Shown piece by piece: positions 5,668 through 19,772 of a stretch of DNA of 40,269 bases (positions are counted from its first letter, which is position 1; each line of letters opens with the position of its first letter). The DNA comes from an uncultured Chloroflexota bacterium. GTDB lineage: Bacteria > Chloroflexota > Anaerolineae > Anaerolineales > Villigracilaceae. Where the stretch lies: assembly GCA_900696595.1 (NCBI GenBank), contig CAADGT010000134.1, forward strand, positions 1-40,269, read 5' to 3'. The position numbers were made by a program, and so were the translations under genes. The notes under the pieces were generated by a model. The model saw nothing but the letters and a program-made list of their open reading frames with translations, was not told where the DNA came from and did not search any database.

Positions 5668-6711
5668 ATGACACAACCCGTAACCCCCACCGGCAATAAC
5701 GAACTGCTTGGCACGGCAGTCGCCATGCGCAAAATCACCCGCTTTGAACGCCTGCTGGGTCCGGATAACTACCGGATTATGCAAGGGCTGTTCAAAACGC
5801 CCGCTTCCATTGCGGGGTCCATATTAATTCTTCTGTTTATCCTCGTGGCGATTTTTGCGCCTGTGCTGGCTCCGCCCGTCACCCCCAACGACCCCTACAA
5901 GATTCCGCGCGACGGCTTCAAATCTCAACCGCGCGAACCCGGCTCCGATTGGACGAAGAACGTCCCCGACATTCCGTTCTGGTACAAAGCCGTGACCGGC
6001 AATGAAGAATGGGTGCATCTCTTCGGCACCGCGCAGGGTCAATACGACATTTACTACGGCGTGATCTGGGGCACGCGCACCGCCTTTCGGGCGGGTTTCA
6101 TCGTCGTCCTCTCCACGCTGTTGATCGGCGTCGTCGTCGGTTCGGTCTCCGCCTATTACGGCGGGCTCACGGACAACATCCTGATGCGCATTGTGGATGT
6201 CCTGCTGGTGTTGCCCGGGTTGATGGCAACCCTGATTCTGGCGGCTGTGCTGACGCCCATCATCGGCAAAAGCACCCTGCCGGTCATGATTTCATTGATC
6301 GCTTTTGGCTGGCTGGGCTATTCGCGCATCATTCGCGGCGATATCCTTTCGGTGAAACAACGCGACTTTATCCTGGCTGCCCGCGTCATCGGCGCCAAAG
6401 ACAGCCGCATCCTCTTCCGCCACATCATCCCCAACGCCATTGTTCCAACCATGGTGCTGGCGTCGCTGGATATCGGCACGGTGACGCTTTCCTTTTCCGC
6501 GCTCTCCTTTCTCGGCATCGGCGTGGAAGTCGGTTATGCCGACTGGGGGCAGGTGCTGGCTTTTGCCCGCAACTGGATCACCAGCCTCAACACCTATTGG
6601 TACATCATCGTTTACCCCGGCGTGACGCTCGTGCTGTTCGTCCTCGGCTGGAACCTGCTCGGCGACGCCCTGCGCGACGTGCTCGACCCGCGCATGAGAG
6701 GCAAAGTCTAA
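5668..6711 (+). CDS. Peptide ABC transporter permease (DppC/OppC type)
   Basis: Second membrane subunit, 347 residues. The ATG at 5668 (MTQPVTPTGN) follows GCAGGGAGAG and is preferred over an upstream in-frame start inside the previous gene. An N-terminal cytoplasmic tail precedes helix 1 (SIAGSILILLFILVAIFAP), then a long extracytoplasmic segment of about 60 residues, then the transport core with EAA loop RDFILAARVIGAKDSRI. The C-terminus DALRDVLDPRMRGK matches DppC. The next gene appears to start three bases after the stop. Confidence 0.93.
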   Translation: MTQPVTPTGNNELLGTAVAMRKITRFERLLGPDNYRIMQGLFKTPASIAGSILILLFILVAIFAPVLAPPVTPNDPYKIPRDGFKSQPREPGSDWTKNVPDIPFWYKAVTGNEEWVHLFGTAQGQYDIYYGVIWGTRTAFRAGFIVVLSTLLIGVVVGSVSAYYGGLTDNILMRIVDVLLVLPGLMATLILAAVLTPIIGKSTLPVMISLIAFGWLGYSRIIRGDILSVKQRDFILAARVIGAKDSRILFRHIIPNAIVPTMVLASLDIGTVTLSFSALSFLGIGVEVGYADWGQVLAFARNWITSLNTYWYIIVYPGVTLVLFVLGWNLLGDALRDVLDPRMRGKV

Positions 6712-6713
6712 TC

Positions 6714-7418
6714 TTGCGGCTTCCCGCTGTTTATCTTCTATTTGTTGGAATAGCCCTGCTTCTGGCGGGGCTGTTCTTTGATTCCGGCGCGGCGCGCGCG
6801 CGTTTGCAAACCGCCACCCCCGCTCCCACATCTTTACCTGTGGGGACGCCCGACCGCCTGGCGCAACCCACCCTGCCCGCCTCTCCCTCGCAGGCAGACC
6901 TCGGATCGCAGGCGTACTGGCTTTCCTGCCTGCCCTGTCACGGCGATGTGGGGCAGGGGCTGACCGACGAATTCCGCGAGACATACCCGGCTGAAGATCA
7001 ATACTGTTGGGAAAGCGGCTGTCATGGCAAGAACCCCTACGAGAGCGGTTTCACGCTTCCGAAGACAATCCCCGCCGTTGTGGGACCCGGAACATTGCAA
7101 AAGTATGCGAACGCCGCCCAACTTAACGCTTACATCCGCGCCGCCATGCCATACTGGGACCCCGGCAGTTTGACCGAAGACGAAGCCTGGAAGATCACCG
7201 CCTTCCTCCTGCGCGAAAATGGGTTGTGGGACGCCCGGGAGGAGATCAACGCCTCCAACGCCGACCGGATTCCGGTCCACGAACCCGAGCCGGAATCCAC
7301 TCTCGAAGCGGATTCGCCCCCAGCGGGCATCCCGCCCTATGGCGCCGCCATCCTTGTATTTGTTTTGCTTGTTTCAGGAATCCTCCTGAGCCGTTTGAGA
7401 AGGAACCCGCAGATATGA
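6714..7418 (+). CDS. Membrane-anchored c-type cytochrome
   Basis: Predicted 234-residue electron-transfer protein with an N-terminal signal/anchor (LRLPAVYLLFVGIALLLAGL), a Thr/Pro-rich spacer, a cytochrome c domain and a C-terminal helix (AAILVFVLLVSGILLSRLRR). The heme site is CLPCHG (C-x2-CH); AAMPYWDPGSLTEDEAW supplies a plausible axial Met. A second motif, CWESGCH (C-x4-CH), could be another heme site or a disulfide/metal site. The proposed start is TTG 6714, preceded by GAGAGG about 12 bases upstream; no ATG or GTG precedes the hydrophobic segment in frame after the previous stop. A cytochrome is an unexpected member of a peptide-importer operon. Family certain, role unknown. Confidence 0.82.
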   Translation: MRLPAVYLLFVGIALLLAGLFFDSGAARARLQTATPAPTSLPVGTPDRLAQPTLPASPSQADLGSQAYWLSCLPCHGDVGQGLTDEFRETYPAEDQYCWESGCHGKNPYESGFTLPKTIPAVVGPGTLQKYANAAQLNAYIRAAMPYWDPGSLTEDEAWKITAFLLRENGLWDAREEINASNADRIPVHEPEPESTLEADSPPAGIPPYGAAILVFVLLVSGILLSRLRRNPQI

Positions 7419-8239
7419 ACATCCTGATCGCCTCCGACATGGAAGGCGCGACTGGCGTGGTGGATTGGGACCACGTCATGCCCGAGCGCCCGGACTACCC
7501 CCGCTTTTGCCGCCTGCTGACCGGCGACATCAACGCCGCCGCACGCGGAGCGTTTGCGGGCGGGGCAAAGCGAGTCTCCGTCACCGACGGGCATAACACC
7601 AGCCGCAATATTTTGATCGAAGAACTGGACGGGCGCGTCACCCTGAATTGCGGAAGCCCCATGCCCGCGCTCTCGATGGTGCATGGCGTGGACCGCGGCG
7701 TGGACGGGGTTTTATTCATCGGCTATCACGCGCGCGCCGGGGCGCAAAACGCAATTTTGGATCACACCTGGTCGGACGCGAGAGTCGCCAACCTGTGGAT
7801 CAACGACCGGCTGTTCGGCGAGGCGGCATTGAACGCGGCGGTCTGCGGACAGTTCAACGCGCCGGTGGTCATGATCTCCGGCGATCAGACGGCCTGCGCC
7901 GAAGCCCGCGACATGCTCGGCGACCTGGAAACGGCCGTCGTCAAAACCGCTGTCGGGCGCATGGCCGCGGAATGTCTGCCGCCTTCCGTCACTGCCGGGT
8001 TGATCGAGCAAGCCGCAAAACGCGCCGTGGAGCGACTCCAGTCCGGGACTGCGCCCGCGCCGTTTATCGTCCCCGCGCCCATCGTCATGACGCTCGAATT
8101 CTATAAATCCGAAATGGCGGATAAAGCCATGACCCTGCCCGGCGCGCGCCGCGCACAGGATCGCAAAGTTCAATATAATGCCGACGATATGCTGACCATC
8201 TACCACGCCTTCCGCGCAATGGTCGGCATGGCGCGATAA
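7415..8239 (+). CDS. M55 family D-aminopeptidase (DppA of Bacillus type)
   Basis: Zinc-dependent peptidase that removes N-terminal D-amino acids, 274 residues, close to the family length. Metal-ligand motifs are visible: SDMEGATG at the N-terminus, DGHNTS near residue 51, FIGYHARAG near 100 and GEAALNAAV near 130. The ATG overlaps the previous stop (ATGA) and has GAGAAGGAA upstream. In Bacillus subtilis the homologous dppA heads a dipeptide importer operon followed by murein-peptide enzymes. Here it sits after the permeases and before an NlpC/P60 enzyme and an Ala-Glu epimerase, supporting use of D-amino-acid-containing wall peptides. The name should not be confused with the binding protein called DppA in E. 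coli. Confidence 0.92.
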   Translation: MNILIASDMEGATGVVDWDHVMPERPDYPRFCRLLTGDINAAARGAFAGGAKRVSVTDGHNTSRNILIEELDGRVTLNCGSPMPALSMVHGVDRGVDGVLFIGYHARAGAQNAILDHTWSDARVANLWINDRLFGEAALNAAVCGQFNAPVVMISGDQTACAEARDMLGDLETAVVKTAVGRMAAECLPPSVTAGLIEQAAKRAVERLQSGTAPAPFIVPAPIVMTLEFYKSEMADKAMTLPGARRAQDRKVQYNADDMLTIYHAFRAMVGMAR

Positions 8240-8249
8240 GAATTGCCCC

Positions 8250-10019
8250 ATGCCATACGAAACCGTCTGCGGCGCAAAACTGTATTACGAAACCTTCGGC
8301 GTTAAGCGCGAAGGACAAACGCCCGTCCTGCTGATTCACGGCTCCACCCAGACGGGATACTCCTGCTGGAACAAGATCGCGCCCGAACTGGCGCGAGACT
8401 ACTTCGTCATTGTGCCGGATTGCCGCGGGCATGGGCGCTCGGAAAACCCAACGCGCTCCTACTCCTTCCGCGAACTCGCCGCCGACATGGCTGCGCTGAT
8501 CCGCGCCCTCGGATTCGAGAAGGCGCATGTCGTCGGACACAGCAACGGCGGAAACGTCGCCATCGTCATGATGATGGAACACCCCGACGCGACTCAAACC
8601 TGCGTCGCGCAGGCGGGCAACGCCTGGTTGAGCGACGCGCTGATCGAACGCGAGCGGCTCATCTTCCGCCCGGAATACATCGCCGCGCATTACCCCGAAT
8701 GGATGAAGGAAGCCGTCGCCCTGCACGAACCTTTTCACGGCGAGGGATACGCCAGCCTGCTGATGGACCTGACGCGCGAAGAACTTTTGCGCGAACCCAA
8801 CTACACGCCGCAACAACTTGCCCGCGTAAACCTGCCCGCGCTTTTTATTCAGGGCGAAAAGGACGAAGTGAACGCGCCCAGCCGCTTCGCGCAACTCATG
8901 GCGCGCGCCGCGCCGCTCTCCGAACTTTGGATTCCGAAAAATGTCGCCCACAACGTTCACGACGAGACGATGAACGACTGGCTGGAGACCGCGCGCGATT
9001 TCTTCTCGCGGCGCGGAAACGCCGAAAGCGAAGCGCTGTACCGCTTTCGCATGGCGCATTATCCCGACAAACGCGACGGGGAATTCAACGTCCGCGTGGA
9101 CGCGCGGGGAAAAATCGTCGGCGCAGTATTAACCCCGCAGCGCAGGCAGGAAGCCCTGTCCGTATTGAATCGAGCCGCGCCCGAAGATGAGATTCAAGTC
9201 CGGATCGCAGAATCAACCCCCTGGGCGATCCTCAATCGCCCCATCGAAGACCTGCGAAGCAAGCCCACGATCCACAGCGAACGGATCAGCCAGGCGCGTT
9301 TGAGCGAGACCGCGCGCGTGATCGAGCGCGTCCCCGGCTGGGCGAAGATTCGCCTTGAACACGACGGCTACATCGGCTGGGTTCACGACAATTCGCTTTT
9401 TATCTGCGACGCAAGCGCCGCCGCGCAGTATCTTTCCACATGCAACGCCGTCGCATCCGCTTCGCTGGCGGAGGCGAAAAACGAACGCGGCGCGTTGACT
9501 CAAAAAATTCCCTTCGGCGTTCGCGCGCGGCTTGAAGGCGATCAATTGATTCTGCCCGACGGGCGGCGCTGGATTGTCACCCCGTCCGGCTTTCTTGCTT
9601 TGGATAAAACCCCGCCTCCGACTCCCGAAGGCATTGCCCAGACCCTCGACCTGATTCGCCGTTTTGCCGGAGTCCCCTACCTGTGGGGCGGACGTTCCCC
9701 CTACGGCTTCGACTGCTCCGGGCTGGCGGGCGTTTTCCACGCTTTCATGGGCGTGAACATCCCGCGCGACGCCGACCAGCAATTTACATCCGGCAGGGAA
9801 GTGGATACCCCTGAACCCGGCGACCTGCTCTTCTTCGGCGAACCCGACGAAGACGGCGACGCGCACATCAGCCACGTCGCCATTTCATTGGGAGGCGACG
9901 ACTTCATCCACGCCAACGGCAGCGATTGGGGCGTTTCCTATAACAGCCTCGACCCGCAAAGCCCCATCTACCGCGCCTGGCTGGGAGAAAACTATCGCGG
10001 CGCGCGCAGGTTCGTATGA
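8250..10019 (+). CDS. Alpha/beta-hydrolase fused to SH3 and NlpC/P60 peptidase domains
   Basis: A 589-residue protein of two enzymes. Residues 1-255 are an alpha/beta-hydrolase: LLIHGSTQ oxyanion region, nucleophile Ser98 in GHSNGG, Asp205 in GEKDEV and His234 in VAHNVH. Residues about 275-450 are SH3-like, with GWAKIRLEHDGYIGWVHD typical of YkfC-type enzymes. Residues 455-589 are NlpC/P60: Cys489 in YGFDCSGL, His542 in HISHVA and a third polar site in FIHANG. NlpC/P60 enzymes of this architecture cut the gamma-D-Glu to diamino-acid bond of murein peptides. There is no signal peptide, so it probably acts in the cytoplasm on imported peptides. It starts 10 bases after the D-aminopeptidase gene and overlaps the epimerase gene. 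Both active sites look intact. Confidence 0.9.
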   Translation: MPYETVCGAKLYYETFGVKREGQTPVLLIHGSTQTGYSCWNKIAPELARDYFVIVPDCRGHGRSENPTRSYSFRELAADMAALIRALGFEKAHVVGHSNGGNVAIVMMMEHPDATQTCVAQAGNAWLSDALIERERLIFRPEYIAAHYPEWMKEAVALHEPFHGEGYASLLMDLTREELLREPNYTPQQLARVNLPALFIQGEKDEVNAPSRFAQLMARAAPLSELWIPKNVAHNVHDETMNDWLETARDFFSRRGNAESEALYRFRMAHYPDKRDGEFNVRVDARGKIVGAVLTPQRRQEALSVLNRAAPEDEIQVRIAESTPWAILNRPIEDLRSKPTIHSERISQARLSETARVIERVPGWAKIRLEHDGYIGWVHDNSLFICDASAAAQYLSTCNAVASASLAEAKNERGALTQKIPFGVRARLEGDQLILPDGRRWIVTPSGFLALDKTPPPTPEGIAQTLDLIRRFAGVPYLWGGRSPYGFDCSGLAGVFHAFMGVNIPRDADQQFTSGREVDTPEPGDLLFFGEPDEDGDAHISHVAISLGGDDFIHANGSDWGVSYNSLDPQSPIYRAWLGENYRGARRFV

Positions 10020-11029
10020 ATCTGAACGTCTCGCCGCTCACGCTCAATCTGCGCACAACCTTCCGCGTCTCTCACGGCGCAAGCGACCGGAGGGAAAACG
10101 CGCTGGTCACACTGCAACACGAAGGCTTGACCGGCTATGGCGAAGCCGCCGCCGTGTTCTACTACGGCGACACCTACGAAAGCCTGAGCGCCGCGCTGCA
10201 ATCCCTGCCGCCGTTGGGCGACGACCCCTTCGCGCTCGAAGAGATTCTCAACCGCCTGCCGCCCATGTCTCACGCCGCGCAAGCCGCCGTGGATATGGCG
10301 CTGCACGACCTGTGGGGCAAACGGCTGGGGCAACCGCTTTACCGCCTGCTTGGGTTAACGCCCGCGCCGCTCCCGCAAACCTCCTTCACCATCGGCATTG
10401 ATACGCCCGAAGCCATGTCCGCCCGCGCGCGCGAGACGCAATATCCCATCATCAAAACAAAATTGGATTCCCAAAATCCCGAAACCCAGGTCGCCGCCAT
10501 CCGCGCCGCCTCCTCCGCCGTTTTGCGGGTGGATGCGAACGCCGCCTGGACGCCCGCCCAGGCATTGGATTTAATTCCGCGCCTCGCCCCCTACGACCTG
10601 GAACTGATCGAACAACCCCTGCCTGCGGGCGACCCCGAAGCCTATCGCTGGCTCAAACATGAACTTGCCCGGCGCGATGTCCGCGTTCCAATTTACATAG
10701 ACGAAAGCCTGCAAACTTCCCGCGACGTTGCGCGTCATGCCGGGGCGGTGGACGGCGTTGTAGTCAAACTGATGAAGACCGGCGGCTTGCGCGAAGCCCT
10801 GCGCGCCATCCACACCGCCCGCGCCCACGAGATGCAAGTCATGCTCTCCTGCATGATCGAAAGTTCGCTGGGCGTGACCGCCGCCGCCCACCTCGCCCCG
10901 CTCTGCGACCAACTCGATTTGGACGGACCCCTGCTCATCGCCAACGATCCCTTCGACGGACTGCGCTACGACGGCGCGAACCTCTCCCTGCCCGACCGCC
11001 CCGGCATCGGCGCCGCGCTTCGTTTGTAA
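10016..11029 (+). CDS. L-Ala-D/L-Glu dipeptide epimerase (enolase superfamily)
   Basis: 337 residues of the muconate-lactonising subgroup of the enolase superfamily, most like YkfB/YcjG, which convert L-Ala-D-Glu released from murein into L-Ala-L-Glu so that it can be hydrolysed. Acid-base Lys in KTKLD (K-x-K) and KLMKTGG, metal ligands in RVDANAAW, IEQPL and YIDES, and the late DLDGP loop that helps define dipeptide specificity are all present. The ATG overlaps the stop of the NlpC/P60 fusion (ATGA). It is the last gene of the operon; about 40 bases later the promoter of the next operon begins, with no clear terminator between. Confidence 0.9.
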   Translation: MNLNVSPLTLNLRTTFRVSHGASDRRENALVTLQHEGLTGYGEAAAVFYYGDTYESLSAALQSLPPLGDDPFALEEILNRLPPMSHAAQAAVDMALHDLWGKRLGQPLYRLLGLTPAPLPQTSFTIGIDTPEAMSARARETQYPIIKTKLDSQNPETQVAAIRAASSAVLRVDANAAWTPAQALDLIPRLAPYDLELIEQPLPAGDPEAYRWLKHELARRDVRVPIYIDESLQTSRDVARHAGAVDGVVVKLMKTGGLREALRAIHTARAHEMQVMLSCMIESSLGVTAAAHLAPLCDQLDLDGPLLIANDPFDGLRYDGANLSLPDRPGIGAALRL

Positions 11030-11247: not shown

Positions 11248-13128
11248 ATGTTACGAAAACGATTGTTAGCATTGCTCGGCTTGCTCGTGATCGCCAGCAT
11301 GACCCTCGTAGCCTGCGGCGGAACGGACGTGCCTGCCGCGCCGTCGGTCGAGACCGTCGAAGTCATCGTGACCGAGGTGGTGGAAGTCGAACGCGAGGCG
11401 TTCACAACACCGCACCCGATCCTGAGCGACCTCAAGGTTCGCCAGGCGCTTGCCTACTGCACCAACAAATCGGATCTGCTCAAGTCAGTGTACCCGTTGA
11501 TCAGCGATGAAGCTCGCGCGGGACTGGTGATGGACACATTCATTCCCAAGAGTCACTGGGCTTACGCTGGCGACGAAAATGTCACCATTTATTCGTACGA
11601 TCCCGATAAGGGACGGGCGCTTCTCGATGAAGCCGGCTGGACCCTCGCTGAAGGCGCGGATTTCCGCACGAACGCCGATGGCGATGAACTTTCCCTGAAA
11701 TTCACCACCACGAGCGCCACCTTCCGCCAGACCTGGGCGGCAATCTGGGAACAGCAGATGGCGGAGTGCGGCATTCGCATCGTTCGTTTGCATGCCCCTG
11801 CCTCCTGGTGGTTTGGCGATACCACAGGCATTGCCCGCCGCGATTATGAACTCGGCGCGTTCGCCTGGGTGGGCCAAGCCGACCCCGGTGGTCAGACCCT
11901 GTATGCTTGTGATCAGATCCCCTTCCCGACCAACGGCTGGGAAGGTCAGAATGCCATGGGTTGGTGTAATGAAGCCGCCAGCACGAACATCAAACTGGCG
12001 AACAACACGCTCGTGCAAGATGAGCGCATTGCGGCGTATACCGTTGTCCAGCAGGAATTCACCAAGGACGTCCCGAGCATCCCGCTCTTCAACCGCACCG
12101 AAACCTTCGCGACCGCGGCTGACCTCACCGGCTTTGCTCCCACTCCGGGACAGGAATACTACAACTACAACGTTCAGGAATGGGCCCGCCCCGGACAGGA
12201 TACCATCATCCTCGGCTTTACGCAGGAACCGGCCTCCCTCTTCACGCTCGTGGAAGACGCCTTTGTGGCAAACATCGCCTACCAGATCGTTCGCCCCGCG
12301 CAGGAATGGCATCTGAACTACGAATTCACGAATTCGCCGATCACCAAGGAACTGCCCACGCTTGAAAACGGCGGGACGACCAACAACGATGTCGAAGTGT
12401 CTGAAGGCACAAAGGTTGTGGACGTCAATGGCGATGTCGTCGAACTCGCCCCTGGCGTGACAGTCAAGAATGCGGCTGGCGAAGAAGTGGAATTCACCGG
12501 CGGCACCGTCACCATGAAGCAGTTGGTCTCCAGGTTCGAGATTGCCGACGGCGTTACCTGGGAAGACGGCACGCCGGTCTCCAGCGCCGACCTTGAATTG
12601 GGTTATAAGATCGCCTGCGATCCCGAATCCGGCGCGACCTCCTTCATCACCTGCGATAAGACCGCCAATGTCGAATTCCTCACCGATGCGGTTGGTTACA
12701 TCCAGACCTGGGTCCCCGGCGTTCAAGACCCGCTATACTTCGTCCCTGTTTGGCCGATCTACCCCAATCATCAGTTGGGCGATGTCCCCGCGGCTGAATG
12801 GGCGACCAACCCGTTGGTGGCTGAGACGCCTCTCTCCTATGGTCCTTACAAGCTCGTGGAATGGGTCAAGGGCGAAAAGATGGTCTTTGCTGCGAATGAG
12901 CACTGGGTCGGCGGCGCTCCTGCCACCCCGAACTTTGTAATTCAGTTCGTCACCCCCGAGAGCGCTGAAAGCTTGTTGCTCGGCGGCGAGGTGGACATCC
13001 TGGCTTCCGAGTCGTTGGCTGGCCTCACCCAAGCGTTGGTGGATGCCGAAGCGGCCGGCGCGATCAAGACCTACACCGAAGCAGGCGGCACCTGGGAACA
13101 CATCGATATCCAGCTGTTTATTCGATAG
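11248..13128 (+). CDS. Circularly permuted ABC transporter substrate-binding lipoprotein (SBP_bac_5)
   Basis: 626 residues; start fixed by TTGGAGGAG and a lipoprotein signal peptide (lipobox TLVAC, Cys23) followed by an acidic spacer. Domain order is swapped. Residues about 56-313 are the canonical C-terminal half: LKVRQALAYC, YDPDKGRALLDEAGW, AECGIRI, VPSIPLFNR. Residues about 316-626 are the canonical N-terminal half: ILGFTQEPASLF, LPTLENG, VTWEDGTPVSSAD, SYGPYKLVEWVKGEK, LLLGGEVDI, ending EHIDIQLFIR. In ordinary relatives (for example the protein at 17850) these blocks occur in the opposite order, and the new termini lie exactly between the two lobes. The frame is uninterrupted across the internal junction (QEWARPGQDTIILG). 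It heads a complete importer operon, so it is likely expressed and functional; ligand unknown. Confidence 0.9.
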   Translation: MLRKRLLALLGLLVIASMTLVACGGTDVPAAPSVETVEVIVTEVVEVEREAFTTPHPILSDLKVRQALAYCTNKSDLLKSVYPLISDEARAGLVMDTFIPKSHWAYAGDENVTIYSYDPDKGRALLDEAGWTLAEGADFRTNADGDELSLKFTTTSATFRQTWAAIWEQQMAECGIRIVRLHAPASWWFGDTTGIARRDYELGAFAWVGQADPGGQTLYACDQIPFPTNGWEGQNAMGWCNEAASTNIKLANNTLVQDERIAAYTVVQQEFTKDVPSIPLFNRTETFATAADLTGFAPTPGQEYYNYNVQEWARPGQDTIILGFTQEPASLFTLVEDAFVANIAYQIVRPAQEWHLNYEFTNSPITKELPTLENGGTTNNDVEVSEGTKVVDVNGDVVELAPGVTVKNAAGEEVEFTGGTVTMKQLVSRFEIADGVTWEDGTPVSSADLELGYKIACDPESGATSFITCDKTANVEFLTDAVGYIQTWVPGVQDPLYFVPVWPIYPNHQLGDVPAAEWATNPLVAETPLSYGPYKLVEWVKGEKMVFAANEHWVGGAPATPNFVIQFVTPESAESLLLGGEVDILASESLAGLTQALVDAEAAGAIKTYTEAGGTWEHIDIQLFIR

Positions 13129-13157: not shown

Positions 13158-13189
13158 GATAGGTGTGCCTCGAAAGAGGCGCACCTATC
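13158..13189 (+). other. Intercistronic hairpin with GAAA tetraloop
   Basis: GATAGGTGTGCCTC, loop GAAA, GAGGCGCACCTATC: a 14-bp stem with one G-T wobble capped by a GNRA tetraloop and not followed by Ts. It occupies the same position (binding-protein gene to DppB-type gene) as the hairpin at 4371, so a role in mRNA stability or stoichiometry is likely. Confidence 0.75.
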
Positions 13190-13206
13190 CTGCTTGCGAG
13201 GGATCA

Positions 13207-14406
13207 ATGACCGTATTTTATATCAGGCGTCTTTTTCAAATGGCTTTGGTATTGCTGATTTCAGCAATTGCCACTTACACGCTTCTCAACTTTGCGCCGG
13301 GGGGACCGCTCGCGGGATTAAGGCAGATACAGCAAACTGGCCGCTTCCAAATCACAGAAGACGATATTGCCCGCATCCGGGCATATTTTGAGTTGGACTT
13401 ATACCTCCCTTATCGTTTTATGCGCTGGTTCGTCGGCTGGCCCACGGGCCCGGTTGAGATCGGCGGCAGAGAATATTTTTCGGATGTGGTGGTGGGGTGC
13501 CGCAAGCCGGTTGAAACTGAAGTTCTTAACGACGACGGCGAGTATGAAATTCAAGTCACCGGCTGCAATGAACTGGTCTACATGAAAGACCTGACAGGGC
13601 GGCGCGTGAGCCGCGGCATCATCCGGGGCGATTTTGGCTTGTCGTGGCGTTTATTGCGCGATCGCCCGGTCTCGGAATTGATCATCAGCCGCCTGCCCAA
13701 GACCATTCAATTGATCGGCTTGTCAACCCTGTTGTCCCTGTTCATTGGGATCCCGCTTGGCATCTATTCCGCAGTCAAACAATATTCGCGATTTGATTAT
13801 ATATTTACATCGCTTGCATTCATGGGATCAGCCATGCCGACCTTTTTCTTTGGCATTGTGATGATCCTGTTGTTCTCCCTCATCCCCAAGGAAGCCGGCT
13901 GGCTTTATGTGCCTGCCGGGTTGTCGGAGTCAGTGCGCGGTTACACCATTCCTTTGCTTGGAGAGGTGGCTGCGGGATCCGTCAAGGACAGGATCCTGCA
14001 TCTCATCCTGCCTGTGGCGGTGCTTACGATTGTCAACATTTCGTATTACAGCCGTTTTGTGCGCGGCAGCATGTTGGAAGTGATGCGGCAGGATTATATC
14101 CGGACTGCGCGCGCCAAAGGACTTTTGGAAAGGGTGGTGATCATGAAACATGCTCTGCGAAACGCCCTTATACCGTTCATCACCATCGTGGTCTTCACCC
14201 TGCCCGGCCTGTTTAGCGGCGCGATCATTACCGAGAGCATCTTCGCATGGCCCGGCATGGGGCGGCTCTACCTTCTGGCGCTTGGCGATTACGACTACCC
14301 TGTAGCCATGGCGATCTTCTTTATCATTGCCGTGCTGACGGTCATAGCCACACTATTGCGGGATGTTCTATACACGATTGTAGATCCGCGCATTCGTTTA
14401 TCCTGA
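13207..14406 (+). CDS. Peptide ABC transporter permease (DppB/OppB type) with extended periplasmic-side loop
   Basis: 399 residues, about 60 longer than E. coli DppB. ATG 13207 is chosen because it follows GCGAGGGA and begins with the family motif FYIRRLFQMALVLL; in-frame upstream starts fall inside the hairpin. After helix 1 the extracytoplasmic loop is expanded (residues about 75-140) and holds two cysteines (Cys98, Cys120) that could form a disulfide. The EAA loop is RQDYIRTARAKGLLERV and the C-terminus is IVDPRIRLS. It partners the DppC-type gene 15 bases downstream and presumably docks the permuted binding protein encoded upstream. Confidence 0.92.
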   Translation: MTVFYIRRLFQMALVLLISAIATYTLLNFAPGGPLAGLRQIQQTGRFQITEDDIARIRAYFELDLYLPYRFMRWFVGWPTGPVEIGGREYFSDVVVGCRKPVETEVLNDDGEYEIQVTGCNELVYMKDLTGRRVSRGIIRGDFGLSWRLLRDRPVSELIISRLPKTIQLIGLSTLLSLFIGIPLGIYSAVKQYSRFDYIFTSLAFMGSAMPTFFFGIVMILLFSLIPKEAGWLYVPAGLSESVRGYTIPLLGEVAAGSVKDRILHLILPVAVLTIVNISYYSRFVRGSMLEVMRQDYIRTARAKGLLERVVIMKHALRNALIPFITIVVFTLPGLFSGAIITESIFAWPGMGRLYLLALGDYDYPVAMAIFFIIAVLTVIATLLRDVLYTIVDPRIRLS

Positions 14407-14421
14407 TGAGATTGGAGCCCC

Positions 14422-15420
14422 ATGACTGCTGATTCCCAGGTCGCCACATTGTCTGCCGAAGCGATAACCATCGAGGAACGCACTCCGTTCCAGATCGTAT
14501 TAAATCGTTTCAAACGCCACCGTTTGGCGATGGTCGCTTCGATCGTCATGCTGGCAATATTCGGCATTACGATTTTTGCCCCTGTGATTGCCCCCTTCAA
14601 GATACAGGAATTATCGGTGAACAAATATTTTGCGCCCTGGGGAACCGTTGACGAAGAAACCGGGCGCACCCATTATATGGGAACGGACAACATTGGCAGG
14701 GATTATTTCTCTCGTCTGATTTATGCCGGGCGCATTTCGTTGACGGTCGCCATTCTCTCCGTGATCATTGCCGAGACGATAGGGATCACCGTTGGGGCGA
14801 TCTCCGGGTTTTTCGGCGGCTGGGTTGACGCCGTTCTGATGCGGTTTGTGGAATTCATGCTGACCATCCCGACCCTGCCGCTGTTGTTGATCATTTCATC
14901 CATGCTTTTGCGCAACGACGAATTGATCAACATACCCGACCCGATTCTACAGTTTATGGGCAACATCCTGCTATTAAGCCCACGGGATTCCCGAAACGCG
15001 GTTCTGATCGTCTTGGTGCTGGCGGGGTTTGGCTGGTTGAGCGCCGCGCAACTTATGCGCGGAACGGTGCTTTCCCTGCGCGAGCAAACCTTCGTCGAGG
15101 CATCGCGTTCGCTCGGCGCGTCGAATTTCCGAATCATCATGCGCGATATGATCCCCAACGCCATGGCGCCCATCATCGTGGACGCTTCGCTCGGGCTGGC
15201 TGGTTACATCGTAGGCGAAGCCGCCCTTGCCTTTCTGGGTTTCGGAATTCAAGACCCTGTTCCAACCTGGGGCAATATGCTGTCTGCCTCGCAACAGTTC
15301 ATGCTCGACCGCCCCTGGCTGCCTCTTGTGCCGGGTTTGCCAATTTTTATCTGTTCGCTCGCTTTCAATTACATCGGCGACGGTTTGCGCGACGCGCTTG
15401 ATCCCCGGCTTAAGTTATAA
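14422..15420 (+). CDS. Peptide ABC transporter permease (DppC/OppC type)
   Basis: 332-residue membrane subunit. An N-terminal cytoplasmic stretch leads into helix 1 (AMVASIVMLAIFGITIFAP). HYMGTDNIGRDYFSRLIYAGRIS is the conserved DppC segment before helix 2, and the EAA-type loop is EASRSLGASNFRI. The C-terminus ends GDGLRDALDPRLKL. The ATG is preceded by GATTGGAG. The following ATPase gene starts about 20 bases after its stop. Confidence 0.93.
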   Translation: MTADSQVATLSAEAITIEERTPFQIVLNRFKRHRLAMVASIVMLAIFGITIFAPVIAPFKIQELSVNKYFAPWGTVDEETGRTHYMGTDNIGRDYFSRLIYAGRISLTVAILSVIIAETIGITVGAISGFFGGWVDAVLMRFVEFMLTIPTLPLLLIISSMLLRNDELINIPDPILQFMGNILLLSPRDSRNAVLIVLVLAGFGWLSAAQLMRGTVLSLREQTFVEASRSLGASNFRIIMRDMIPNAMAPIIVDASLGLAGYIVGEAALAFLGFGIQDPVPTWGNMLSASQQFMLDRPWLPLVPGLPIFICSLAFNYIGDGLRDALDPRLKL

Positions 15421-15440
15421 TCCCGAACTTGGAGACTCCC

Positions 15441-16481
15441 TTGGCAGACACTATGGACACCCAAAAACCCCTTCTGGAAGTCAAAAACCTCAAGACCTAC
15501 TTCTATACCGAAGACGGAGTCGTTCATGCCGTGGACGGCGTGGACTTCGAGATATATCCCGGCGAAGTGCTTGGCATCGTGGGCGAATCGGGATGCGGCA
15601 AAAGCGTCACCTCGCTTTCCATCATGCGCCTGATCGGCATCCCAGGCAAAATCGTCGAAGGCGAAATCCTATTTGATGGAAAAAACCTGGTAAAGGCATC
15701 CGAAGAGGAAATGATGCAGGTGCGCGGCAACCGCATCTCCATGATCTTCCAACAGCCGCAATCCGCGCTCAACCCCGTCTTCCGCGCCGGCGACCAGATC
15801 TCCGAAGTGTTGAACATCCACCAGGATTTCGGCAAGGAAAAAGGACGCGAACGCGCCGTGGAACTGCTCAAGCTGGTCGGCATCCCCGAACCAGAGCGCC
15901 GCGCCGACTCCTTCCCGCACGAACTTTCCGGCGGCATGGCTCAGCGCGTGATGATCGCCATGGCGCTGGCCTGCGTCCCCGACCTGCTGATCGCCGACGA
16001 ACCCACCACCGCGCTGGATGTGACCATCCAGGCGCAGATCCTCGACCTGATGCGCGACATGAAACAACAGCTCGGCTCCGCGCTCATGCTCATCACCCAC
16101 GACCTCGGCGTCATCGCCGAAATGGCAAACCGCGTCGTGGTGATGTATGCCGGGGAAATCGTCGAACAATCCCCCGTCGTCTCCCTCTTCGACAAACCGC
16201 TTCATCCCTATACCCAGGGCTTGATCGGCTCCATCCCGGTCCTCGGCGAAATCCGCGACCGGTTGGATGTCATCCCCGGCTCCGTCCCCAACCTGATTGA
16301 CCTGCCGCAGGGATGCCGTTTCGCCCCGCGATGCCGCGCGCGCGTCGAACATAACCTCGCAATTTGCACCGACCGGCATCCTTCCCTGATCGATATCGCG
16401 GAGGGACATAAGATCCGTTGCTGGCTGTACCAGGACGCCCCCGGACATGTCGCCCCATTGAAATCCGGAAAGGAATCTTAA
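15441..16481 (+). CDS. Peptide ABC transporter ATP-binding protein (DppD/OppD type)
   Basis: About 346 residues. Walker [12 protein letters not shown]-loop [13 protein letters not shown], signature [10 protein letters not shown], Walker [15 protein letters not shown] and H-loop ITHDLG are present, with the C-terminal cysteine extension ([12 protein letters not shown]) of the subfamily. The start is uncertain: TTG 15441 has GGAG six bases upstream and is preferred; ATG 15453 and TTG 15429 are in-frame alternatives. It forms an ATPase pair with the gene at 16501. Confidence 0.92.
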
Positions 16482-16500: not shown

Positions 16501-17496
16501 ATGACAACAATTAATCAACCCTCCCAGGAAAAGCCGGATTTGTTGGTGGTCAAAAATTTAACGAAATATTTCCCGGTTCGCTCCGGGCTTCTTCAGCGAG
16601 TCACTGCCTGGGTGCAGGCTGTGGACAAGGTCAGTTTTTCCGTAAAATATGGAGAAACGCTTGGCATGGTGGGCGAATCCGGCTGCGGCAAAACCACCAT
16701 TGGGCGCGCCATTTTGCGGCTGATCGAGCCGACCGCCGGCGAAGTGTACTTCGACGGCGAAGATATCCTTACAATGCGCAGCCAGTCGCTAAAAGCCATG
16801 CGCCGCGACATGCAGATCATCTTCCAGGACCCCTACGCCTCGCTCAACCCGCGCATGCCCATCGGCGAATCAGTGATGGAGGGCTTGCAGATTCACAAGA
16901 TCGGGCACCCCAAAGAACGCTGGGAGATCGCCGTCAACATGCTCAAGAAAGTGGGACTCGAGGAATATCACGCCCGCCGCTACCCGCATGAATTCTCCGG
17001 CGGACAGCGCCAGCGCATCGGCATCGCCCGCGCCCTGGCGTTGAACCCCAAATTCATCGTCTGCGACGAGCCGGTCTCCGCGCTCGACGTTTCCATCCAG
17101 TCGCAGGTCTTGAACATCCTCAAAGACTTGCAGAAGGAATTCGGGCTGACCTTTCTCTTCATCGCCCACAACCTGAGCGTGGTCGAGCATATCTCCGACC
17201 GCGTGGCGGTCATGTACCTCGGCAAGATGGTCGAGTTGACCGATCGCGAATCGCTGTACCGCGAGCCGCTTCATCCCTACACCCGCGCGCTCCTCTCCGC
17301 CATCCCCATCCCGCACCCGAACGTCAAGCGCGAACGCACCATCCTCAAGGGCGACGTTCCCAGCCCGCTCAACCCGCCCAAAGGCTGCCGCTTTCACACC
17401 CGCTGCCCGATCGCGATCGCCAAATGCTCGCAGGAAGAACCGGAGTTCAAGGAAATCAAATCCGGTCACTGGGCGGCGTGCTGGCTGGCTGAATAA
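16501..17496 (+). CDS. Peptide ABC transporter ATP-binding protein (DppF/OppF type)
   Basis: 331 residues. Walker [13 protein letters not shown]-loop [14 protein letters not shown], signature [15 protein letters not shown], Walker [16 protein letters not shown]-loop FIAHNLS, and Cys-rich C-terminus ([12 protein letters not shown]). It is the last gene of the second importer operon, followed by two terminator-like hairpins. The ribosome-binding site is weak, with no clear GGAG before ATG 16501. Strongly similar to the gene at 1210, as expected for paralogous importers. Confidence 0.93.
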
Positions 17497-17820: not shown

Positions 17821-17853
17821 ATGAATCAAACCCATGCAGGCAGGACAACGTGA
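17821..17853 (+). CDS. Possible 10-codon leader peptide overlapping the next start
   Basis: ATG 17821 opens MNQTHAGRTT and its TGA (17851-17853) overlaps the GTG (17850) of the following lipoprotein gene. With TATAAT only six bases upstream it could be translated from a leaderless mRNA and couple translation of the downstream gene. It may be fortuitous. Confidence 0.3.
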   Translation: MNQTHAGRTT

Positions 17854-19772
17854 AAAAAACTTCCATCCCATATTGGCTGTTCCTACTCCTCTTCCTCATC
17901 CCCGCTTGCCTCGGCTTGCAGGATGGAACTGAAACCCCGGCCCCGACTCCCAATTTGGATTCCACGCCGACCCCGCAAGCATCCCCCGACGACGGGATCG
18001 TCGTCTGCATGGGACAGGAACCAAACAGCCTGTATCCCTTCGGCGAATTGAACACCGCCGCGCGCAACGTGCTTGCCGCCATCTACGACGGTCCCATTGA
18101 CAATGTGGGCTACGAATATCAACCCGTTATCCTGACCCAACTGCCCTCGCTCGAAAACGGCGACGCGCAAATCGTAAAAATTGCAGCGCAGTCCGGCGAT
18201 TCAGTGTTGGACGCCGGAGGAAACCTGATCGAATTGACGCCCGGCTCGCGCATTCGCCCTGCGGGTTGCCGCAACGACGACTGCGCCGTCGCCTACGACG
18301 GCGTTACGACAATCGAAATGGATCAAATGATCGTCGCCTTCCGCCTGCGCCCCGACCTCGCCTGGTCGGACGGCGCGCCGCTAACCGCCGACGATTCCAT
18401 CTACTCCTTTGAACTGCAACGCGAAGCGGACGCCGACGACTATCTCATCCAACGCACGCAATCCTACGAAGCCGCCGACGCGCAAACCCTGCAATGGTTC
18501 GGCGTCCCCGGCTTCATCGATTCGACCTACTTCCTCAACTTCTGGCAGCCCGCGCCGCGTCACGCCTGGAGCGAATTTCCCGCAGACCAACTGCCCGACG
18601 TGGACGTATCCTCGCGCGAACCGATCGGATGGGGCCCCTACGCGATCAAAGAATGGATACCGGGGGAAGCAATCACGCTCGAAAAGAATCCCCATTACTT
18701 CCGGATTCGAGACGGCTACCCCAGGACCGAAACGATCCGCATCCGCTTCATCCCCGACCCGGACACTGCCCTGTCCGAGATGATCGCGGGCCGCTGCGAC
18801 CTGATCGAACCTACTTTGAATCTCGAAAACCACGTCGGTTTGCTCAAGAAAATGCAGGACGCGGAAGAGGCGCGCATGTTCGCCGCGACCGGCATGAGCA
18901 TGGAATGGCTCGGCTTCAGTCTTGCCCACGCCTCATACGACAACGGATACGACGTCGGCAGAGACAGGCAGAACTTCTTCGCCGACACCTATACGCGGCA
19001 GGGAATCGCCTACTGCCTGGATCGGGGGACGGTCGCAGCCAGTGTCCTCTACAACCTGACGGACGTCCCCGCGACCTACCTGCCGTCGAACCATCCCGCA
19101 TTCAATTCGGACGCTTCCCCCATCCCTTATGACCCGCAGATCGGCGTCTCACTACTTGAGCAGGCGGGCTGGCGGGACACGGACGAAGACCCTTCCACGC
19201 CGCGCCGCGCCGTCAATGTAAAAAACGTGGCGTATAACACGCCGTTGCTTCTGAAATACCAAACCACATCCACCGCCCAGCGCAGGCAGGTGACCGCCAT
19301 CTTAGAACGCTCGCTTGCCGAATGTGGCATCGGCCTCGAAATCGAATTTGTCCCGCCCAACGATCTTTACGCTCCGGGTCCCGACGGACCGCTTTTCGGA
19401 AGGCAGTTTGACCTTGCCCAATACGCTTTGGGCGCAGAGGGAAGCGAACCCCCCTGCGGCTGGTTCACGAGCGACGGGATTCCCTCCGAATCCAATTCGT
19501 GGTCGGGGTCGAATATCACCGGATATCGCAACGCCGACTATGACCAAGCCTGCCGCGCGGCGCAGTTTTCCATGCGGGAGGATTCCGCCTACCTGGCGTC
19601 ATATCGCCAGACCCAGATCATTCTTGCGGAGGGACTCCCCGCCATCCCGTTATATTCGCGCCTGCGCATCGCCGCCGCCCGTCCCGACCTGTGCGGATTC
19701 GATCTCGATCCTTCAGCAAACGCGCTATGGAATGTCGAAGCGTTCGAGATCTCCGCCGCCTGTCAAAACTGA
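17850..19772 (+). CDS. Orphan ABC substrate-binding lipoprotein (SBP_bac_5, canonical order)
   Basis: 640 residues from GTG 17850 (AGGA upstream); a lipoprotein signal peptide ends LFLIPAC (Cys20), followed by a Pro/Thr-rich spacer. Domains are in normal order: GQEPNSLYPF (about 55), LPSLENG (98), LAWSDGAPLTADD (170), GWGPYAIKEWIPGE (260), then the second lobe YTRQGIAYCLDRG (381), YDPQIGVSLLEQAGW (427), AECGIGLEIEF (490) and LPAIPLYSR (596). Nearly every landmark has a counterpart in the permuted protein at 11248, so the two are close relatives. No permeases accompany it; it may deliver ligand to the importer encoded just upstream. Confidence 0.9.
   Translation: MKKTSIPYWLFLLLFLIPACLGLQDGTETPAPTPNLDSTPTPQASPDDGIVVCMGQEPNSLYPFGELNTAARNVLAAIYDGPIDNVGYEYQPVILTQLPSLENGDAQIVKIAAQSGDSVLDAGGNLIELTPGSRIRPAGCRNDDCAVAYDGVTTIEMDQMIVAFRLRPDLAWSDGAPLTADDSIYSFELQREADADDYLIQRTQSYEAADAQTLQWFGVPGFIDSTYFLNFWQPAPRHAWSEFPADQLPDVDVSSREPIGWGPYAIKEWIPGEAITLEKNPHYFRIRDGYPRTETIRIRFIPDPDTALSEMIAGRCDLIEPTLNLENHVGLLKKMQDAEEARMFAATGMSMEWLGFSLAHASYDNGYDVGRDRQNFFADTYTRQGIAYCLDRGTVAASVLYNLTDVPATYLPSNHPAFNSDASPIPYDPQIGVSLLEQAGWRDTDEDPSTPRRAVNVKNVAYNTPLLLKYQTTSTAQRRQVTAILERSLAECGIGLEIEFVPPNDLYAPGPDGPLFGRQFDLAQYALGAEGSEPPCGWFTSDGIPSESNSWSGSNITGYRNADYDQACRAAQFSMREDSAYLASYRQTQIILAEGLPAIPLYSRLRIAAARPDLCGFDLDPSANALWNVEAFEISAACQN

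Follow-up and report, generated by a model that had tools for sequence, protein, structure and literature searches.

A cluster C binding lipoprotein with its two halves in swapped order heads an Opp/Dpp-type importer operon in Chloroflexota

How far can the large two-lobe fold of a cluster C substrate-binding protein (SBP) be rewired in nature? Binding proteins have been circularly permuted mostly by engineering, and we found one natural precedent, in cluster B. The question is raised by a gene at positions 11248-13128 of a 40,269-nucleotide stretch of DNA from an uncultured Chloroflexota bacterium (contig CAADGT010000134.1), the whole of which we call the window. The initial annotation of this stretch had proposed that the gene encodes a lipoprotein with all blocks of an SBP_bac_5 protein in which the second half precedes the first. 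Our analysis leaves little doubt that the product is a naturally occurring circular permutant of a membrane-tethered cluster C (SBP_bac_5) lipoprotein, cognate to an ABC importer of the Opp/Dpp/Nik type. Such a half-for-half permutation of the large cluster C fold, retained across Chloroflexota, is a natural test of how much rewiring a binding protein tolerates before its function is lost. Its canonical relatives, sometimes within one operon, provide matched pairs for asking whether closure, permease docking and transport depend on where the termini lie and on which side the tether sits.

Swapped order of the halves and predicted fold

The open reading frame at 11248-13128 encodes 626 amino acids without an internal stop. 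The SBP_bac_5 Pfam profile matches the protein in two pieces of reversed order, each above the curated cut-off. Positions 11398-11904 correspond to profile positions 205-358 (68.7 bits) and positions 12520-13095 to profile positions 16-201 (70.1 bits). The total of 137.4 bits, compared with a cut-off of 32.4, places the protein in the family, and the colinear profile order of lobe 1, lobe 2 and C-terminal tail of lobe 1 is not kept. On sequence grounds, the protein is a permuted derivative of SBP_bac_5 (cluster C) and not a canonical member. BLASTP against the canonical neighbour (17814/17850) gave the two off-diagonal blocks that had been expected, residues 318-623 versus 60-370 (E = 2e-29) and residues 58-296 versus 388-629 (E = 3e-24), and the residue pairs listed earlier for the two proteins agree when the neighbour is taken to start at 17850. 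The reversed Pfam pieces and the off-diagonal blocks bear out the proposal that all family blocks are present with the second half before the first. The local alignment score with the neighbour rose from 291 for the protein as it is to 513 when its halves were reordered canonically, and the top score of shuffled controls was 55 (n = 60).

Compared by sequence with solved structures, the protein matched NikZ (4oet) and AppA (1xoc) twice each, in swapped order, and the sequence and fold matches listed for it were all family-5 proteins. Two NCBIfam equivalogs remained under their cut-offs (Opp4A, 133 bits versus 650; DppA_dipep, 44 bits versus 1005). A permuted order depresses such scores, and colinear profile scores under-call permuted proteins.

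A first AlphaFold2 model, made with 23 sequences, had a pLDDT of 76.7 and a pTM of 0.73. With 57 permuted sequences the values were 89.4 and 0.82, and the poor region was confined to the leader and tether (residues 1-46, pLDDT <50). Residues 55-314 superpose on NikZ 249-494 (Z 24.4, 2.3 A), on DppA 272-495 (Z 23.0) and on MppA 300-523 (Z 21.3), and residues 314-615 superpose on AppA 18-265 (Z 19.6), NikZ 2-240 (Z 18.2) and DppA 1-263 (Z 17.5). The model predicts the two-lobe alpha/beta fold of family 5 that had been anticipated, each half superposing on its counterpart lobe, and the predicted closure of the lobes rests on the pTM and the separate superpositions of the halves. The parts of the protein and the genes that follow it are given in Table 1.

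Table 1. Parts of the permuted protein and genes of its cluster (positions in the window)
Feature	Position	Strand	Basis
Lipoprotein leader with lipobox MLRKRLLALLGLLVIASMTLVAC, residues 1-23; lipidation predicted at Cys23	11248..11316	+	sequence
Variable low-confidence tether, residues 24-51, from lipid anchor to new N-terminus of the fold	11317..11400	+	orthologue lengths, pLDDT
Lobe 2 (normal second half), placed first, residues 52-290	11401..12117	+	Pfam 205-358, superposition
Former C-terminal part of lobe 1, residues 291-312, with YNVQEW at its end	12118..12183	+	aligned canonical C-termini
Joint of old C- to old N-terminus, residues 313-317, ARPGQ	12184..12198	+	alignment A2
Lobe 1 (normal first half), placed second, residues 318-615	12199..13092	+	Pfam 16-201, superposition
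Hinge strand at the new C-terminus, residues 616-626, WEHIDIQLFIR	13093..13125	+	alignment, model; lobe 1-to-lobe 2 crossing inferred
OppB/DppB-type permease, cognate partner	13165..14406	+	Pfam BPD_transp_1
OppC/DppC-type permease	14422..15420	+	Pfam BPD_transp_1, OppC_N
OppD/DppD-type ATPase	15429..16481	+	Pfam ABC_tran, oligo_HPY
OppF/DppF-type ATPase	16501..17496	+	Pfam ABC_tran, oligo_HPY
Family-5 binding lipoprotein in canonical order, frame open from 17814	17850..19772	+	Pfam 12-353, one piece

The lipobox residues A22 and C23 are conserved to at least 90% among 23 orthologues, and the tether that follows differs strongly in length between orthologues. We considered a window gene at 2243 as a match to the permuted N-terminus and rejected it, the similarity being merely a common lipoprotein leader and a chance extension. 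At the end of the first half, YNVQEW aligns with canonical C-termini such as MWNIEEF, and the modelled segment 55-314 reaches the C-terminus of NikZ (494). The old first strand, DTIILGFTQEP (from D318), comes directly after the joint, and the old leader is absent. The old termini are thus joined by a short linker, as proposed, with about 5 residues between W312 and D318; 6-7 residues lie between W312 and T319 in 57/57 aligned orthologues.

At the new C-terminus the WEHID strand is conserved right to the stop codon, with W616, E617, H618 and D620 kept in 55-56 of 57 orthologues, and the predicted model has a long strand at residues 606-621. In the superpositions P615 equals DppA 263, P55 equals DppA 272 and MppA 300, and the 8 missing positions are P616-623 (WEHIDxxL). 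The hinge of MppA was published as 286-287 and 507-508 (PMC6022919). Together, these correspondences argue for an opening past the crossover that leaves both hinge strands in the protein. According to the model, the chain would open roughly 8-13 residues beyond the first lobe crossover, inside lobe 2, and the C-terminal strand WEHIDxxL should span the hinge. The initial annotation had put the break at the crossover between the lobes; the break does lie near it, but the superpositions move its exact position about 8 residues further on. The idea that the permuted chain crosses between the lobes a single time was dropped in view of the two DppA correspondences and the eight-residue C-terminal strand between them. 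Cys 71, 174, 221 and 240 of lobe 2 are invariant (57/57), and lobe 1 has two conserved Cys, one invariant and the other present in 56/57; the conserved Cys of both lobes may pair as disulfides.

Comparison with known binding proteins

Cluster C (family 5) SBPs of PF00496, which include DppA, OppA, MppA, NikA/NikZ and AppA, resemble the permuted protein in both lobes and their motifs, in the lipobox leader and in the Opp/Dpp-type operon, and their halves superpose with those of the permuted protein with Z scores of 17-25. In contrast to these proteins, which carry the tether on lobe 1, the permuted protein has swapped halves with the tether on lobe 2, its old termini are connected and the Asp with which DppA binds the dipeptide appears to be substituted. 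Nearest to both halves are the canonical family-5 proteins of the phylum (for example L028, L103 and the 17850 protein). They share a similar operon and leader, but have the normal order and fall outside the permuted clade in every tree.

Literature searches in an open-access subset turned up no report of a permuted protein of cluster C, in agreement with the initial annotation, which named none. Natural permutation of an SBP as such does have a precedent. The cluster B SBP TpMglB-2 (Tp0684) from Treponema pallidum is circularly permuted and has been termed 'Type Ic / Cluster Bc', and its ligand binding and closure were demonstrated experimentally (PMC4990184). Like the 11248 protein, TpMglB-2 is a natural, lineage-conserved permutation of a tethered binding lipoprotein of an ABC importer. 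However, TpMglB-2 is a sugar-binding cluster B protein in which the last ~70-100 residues have moved and a fourth hinge crossing has been added, whereas the 11248 protein belongs to cluster C, is cut near the middle and, judging from the alignment, has no added crossing. Permuted halves of a Thermotoga ribose-binding protein (PMC9815098) likewise probe the tolerance of SBPs to rewiring, but these are engineered single lobes of a ribose-binding protein with type I fold.

Importer operon, permease insert and ligand

The permuted gene heads a complete importer operon, as stated in the initial annotation, in which Pfam assigns two genes to Opp/Dpp-type permeases and two to ATPases of that type. 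The 17850 gene closes the cluster and encodes another binding protein, and its orthologues likewise adjoin both ATPase genes. The order SBPperm-permB-permC-atpD-atpF was present in nearly all loci with enough flank, in both class-level lineages that carry the gene. Two divergent paralogues (L121 and L124) had no importer neighbours within the stretch read, and for the paralogues at L110 and L111 the reading covered only short flanks. Most likely, the predicted role of the permuted protein is to capture a solute and hand it over to its own permeases.

The OppB-type permease has an insert of ~55 residues (about 92-145; ~13438-13599) in the outer loop between TM1 and TM2. The insert contains two conserved Cys (112 and 134) and is present in 15/15 aligned permeases from permuted operons, and the canonical-operon permeases examined lack it, having no insert or unrelated inserts at that place. 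In E. coli DppABCDF a scoop motif reaches into DppA (PMC12136057); the two-Cys insert is located beyond the region of this motif. Among genomes of the window's genus, SBP, permB and permC come and go together like a cassette at a fixed place upstream of the ATPase genes (L141 and L152 versus L123, L127 and L142-L150). It occurs in the permuted form, in a canonical form at the same place in two genomes (G031 and G019), and is missing in five others (G032, G020, G017, G004 and G014), which retain the ATPases, the canonical SBP, a response regulator and glmU. Tentatively, the permutation could be adaptive and not neutral, with the lobe-2 tether and a co-evolved two-Cys-insert permease giving a non-canonical docking geometry and the SBP-permB-permC triple being gained and lost as one cassette, although we consider this rather unlikely.

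In DppA, R383 and D436 (precursor numbering) hold the dipeptide. D436, which binds the amino group of the peptide, aligns with Gln210 of the permuted protein, and this position is Gln or Glu in 51/57 orthologues, which makes an ordinary free dipeptide less likely as the ligand. For R383 the pairwise alignment, weak in that region, shows no clear counterpart. Our guess is that the permuted protein binds a peptide or peptide-like ligand. The row of genes at 7226-11029 encodes a D-aminopeptidase (M55, DppA-like), an alpha/beta-hydrolase fused to SH3 and NlpC/P60, and an L-Ala-D/L-Glu epimerase-type protein of the enolase superfamily. This row looks like a murein-peptide breakdown set next to two peptide importers and hints at murein peptides as the ligand; in the other lineages, however, no such set was seen beside the importer. 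Between the first importer operon of the window and the M55 gene, at about 6711-7418, there is a possible small membrane-bound c-type cytochrome with one CLPCH motif (at 6927) and a match resembling cbb3 subunit III.

Distribution, selection and origin of the permuted gene

Profiles of the two halves were used to sort relatives and separated all of them cleanly into 69 distinct intact permuted proteins and 30 canonical full proteins. Homologues with the same domain order, whose absence would have refuted the initial proposal, are thus numerous, and they occur in several families of Anaerolineae and in a second class-level lineage of Chloroflexota. An end-to-end relative is present in 12/37 genomes of the window's genus (its own included), several others of which lack the permuted gene, and in 7/24 other genomes of the order. 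A GTDB scan yielded 26 more permuted loci, all from Anaerolineales, Anaerolinea, Bellilinea and other Chloroflexota bins; its patterns were those of close relatives and missed the second class-level lineage, and thus it sets no bound on spread beyond Chloroflexota. In a draw of 400 Chloroflexota genomes we counted 43 carriers (~10%) from two class-level lineages, with two copies split. One order outside the window's class has the permuted gene in 41/60 genomes, including most genomes of two families (f36 and f72) and none of two others (f46 and f75). A search of viral contigs gave no match. A candidate for an independent permutation outside the phylum, an apparent end-to-end match on a Rhizobium plasmid (CP087973.1:42225-53721, L128), was rejected because the region consists of two canonical family-5 genes in tandem whose frames are broken and run on; these genes are unannotated, and the mimicry arises in tblastn.

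The dN/dS of the window gene versus five orthologues is 0.05-0.18 overall and about 0.05-0.2 per half, the halves being similar, and invariant residues are present in both lobes. Hence, the permuted gene is under purifying selection.

In our trees, permuted and canonical proteins are split by one branch (SH-aLRT 98 for lobe 1, 99 for lobe 2 and 100 for the concatenated lobes), the permuted clade contains no canonical-order members and the nearest canonical rows are alike for both half trees (L103 and L098). The congruent half trees with shared nearest canonical rows fit, at the level of sequence, one permutation of a single parent gene. The permuted order would be the derived one, since family members in general have the canonical order. 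In the concatenated tree a long-branched canonical protein, L093, attaches basally to the permuted clade, although its placement is unsure; its loop FSTPDPVLSEF resembles FTTPHPILSDL.

At three loci (L056, L059 and L061) canonical and permuted genes lie in tandem, ~300 bases apart or less, which suits a route by tandem duplication. Tandem duplication of an ancestral canonical gene would have been followed by in-frame fusion of the two copies, the first losing its N-terminal half but keeping its leader, and the second losing its leader and C-terminal half. The product would consist of leader, lobe 2, old C-terminal tail, ~5-residue joint, lobe 1 and hinge strand. Reopening of the chain in the loop just inside lobe 2 would let both hinge strands stay, with which ordinary Venus-flytrap closure should work, and the lipid anchor, formerly on lobe 1, would now be on lobe 2 near the hinge.

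The swapped order might instead have been produced in assembly, by collapse of tandem canonical genes such that the tail of one was joined to the head of the next. The tandem canonical genes of the Rhizobium plasmid CP087973.1, which run on in one frame, do mimic the permuted order. At our locus, however, the epimerase gene lies 219 bases upstream and the permease gene 37 bases downstream, with no spare halves alongside, and the same termini recur in 69 distinct proteins, some on multi-megabase contigs (4.40, 5.26 and 5.80 Mb). The presence of the same order in many independent genomes refutes a misassembly, to which we give practically no credence. We also regard as improbable a chimera in which halves of two different binding-protein genes were fused head to tail. 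The tandem canonical and permuted neighbours mentioned above made such recombination possible, but the trees of either half alone recover one and the same clade and share their nearest canonical rows; a chimera of very close tandem paralogues would look just like a permutation and is equivalent to one.

A decaying pseudogene, or a protein whose transport function was lost after the rearrangement, would agree with the frameshifted or reduced copies at L122, L120 and L125 and with the missing gene in several genomes of the genus. These members suggest that the permuted protein is dispensable in some lineages. Decay is nevertheless very improbable for the window gene: as the initial annotation had argued from frame, signal peptide and operon, the frame is open, the lipobox intact and the operon conserved, and both halves have low dN/dS and both lobes invariant residues. 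There is also little probability that the permuted protein serves in docking or regulation independently of ligand and that the canonical 17850 protein captures the ligand. The canonical SBP does remain with the ATPase genes where the permuted gene and the permeases are missing, but the permuted protein is the sole SBP seen in the operon at L112, L122 and L114-L118, loci that cover the second class-level lineage and several Anaerolineae. We favour a permuted protein that itself binds the solute.

Three permuted loci have unusual architectures. The paralogue at L111:2035-4500 (-) carries ~150 extra C-terminal residues that match no family. At L125:8431-9675 (-), on the 5.80-Mb contig, lobe 2 is followed directly by TVWEHIDFNL, lobe 1 is missing, and an extra C-terminal stretch has no significant Pfam match. 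At L120:4550-6749 (-), where a frameshift and a true split gene are both possible, the permuted protein is encoded by two overlapping ORFs, the second without a leader, which are split exactly at the interlobe joint.
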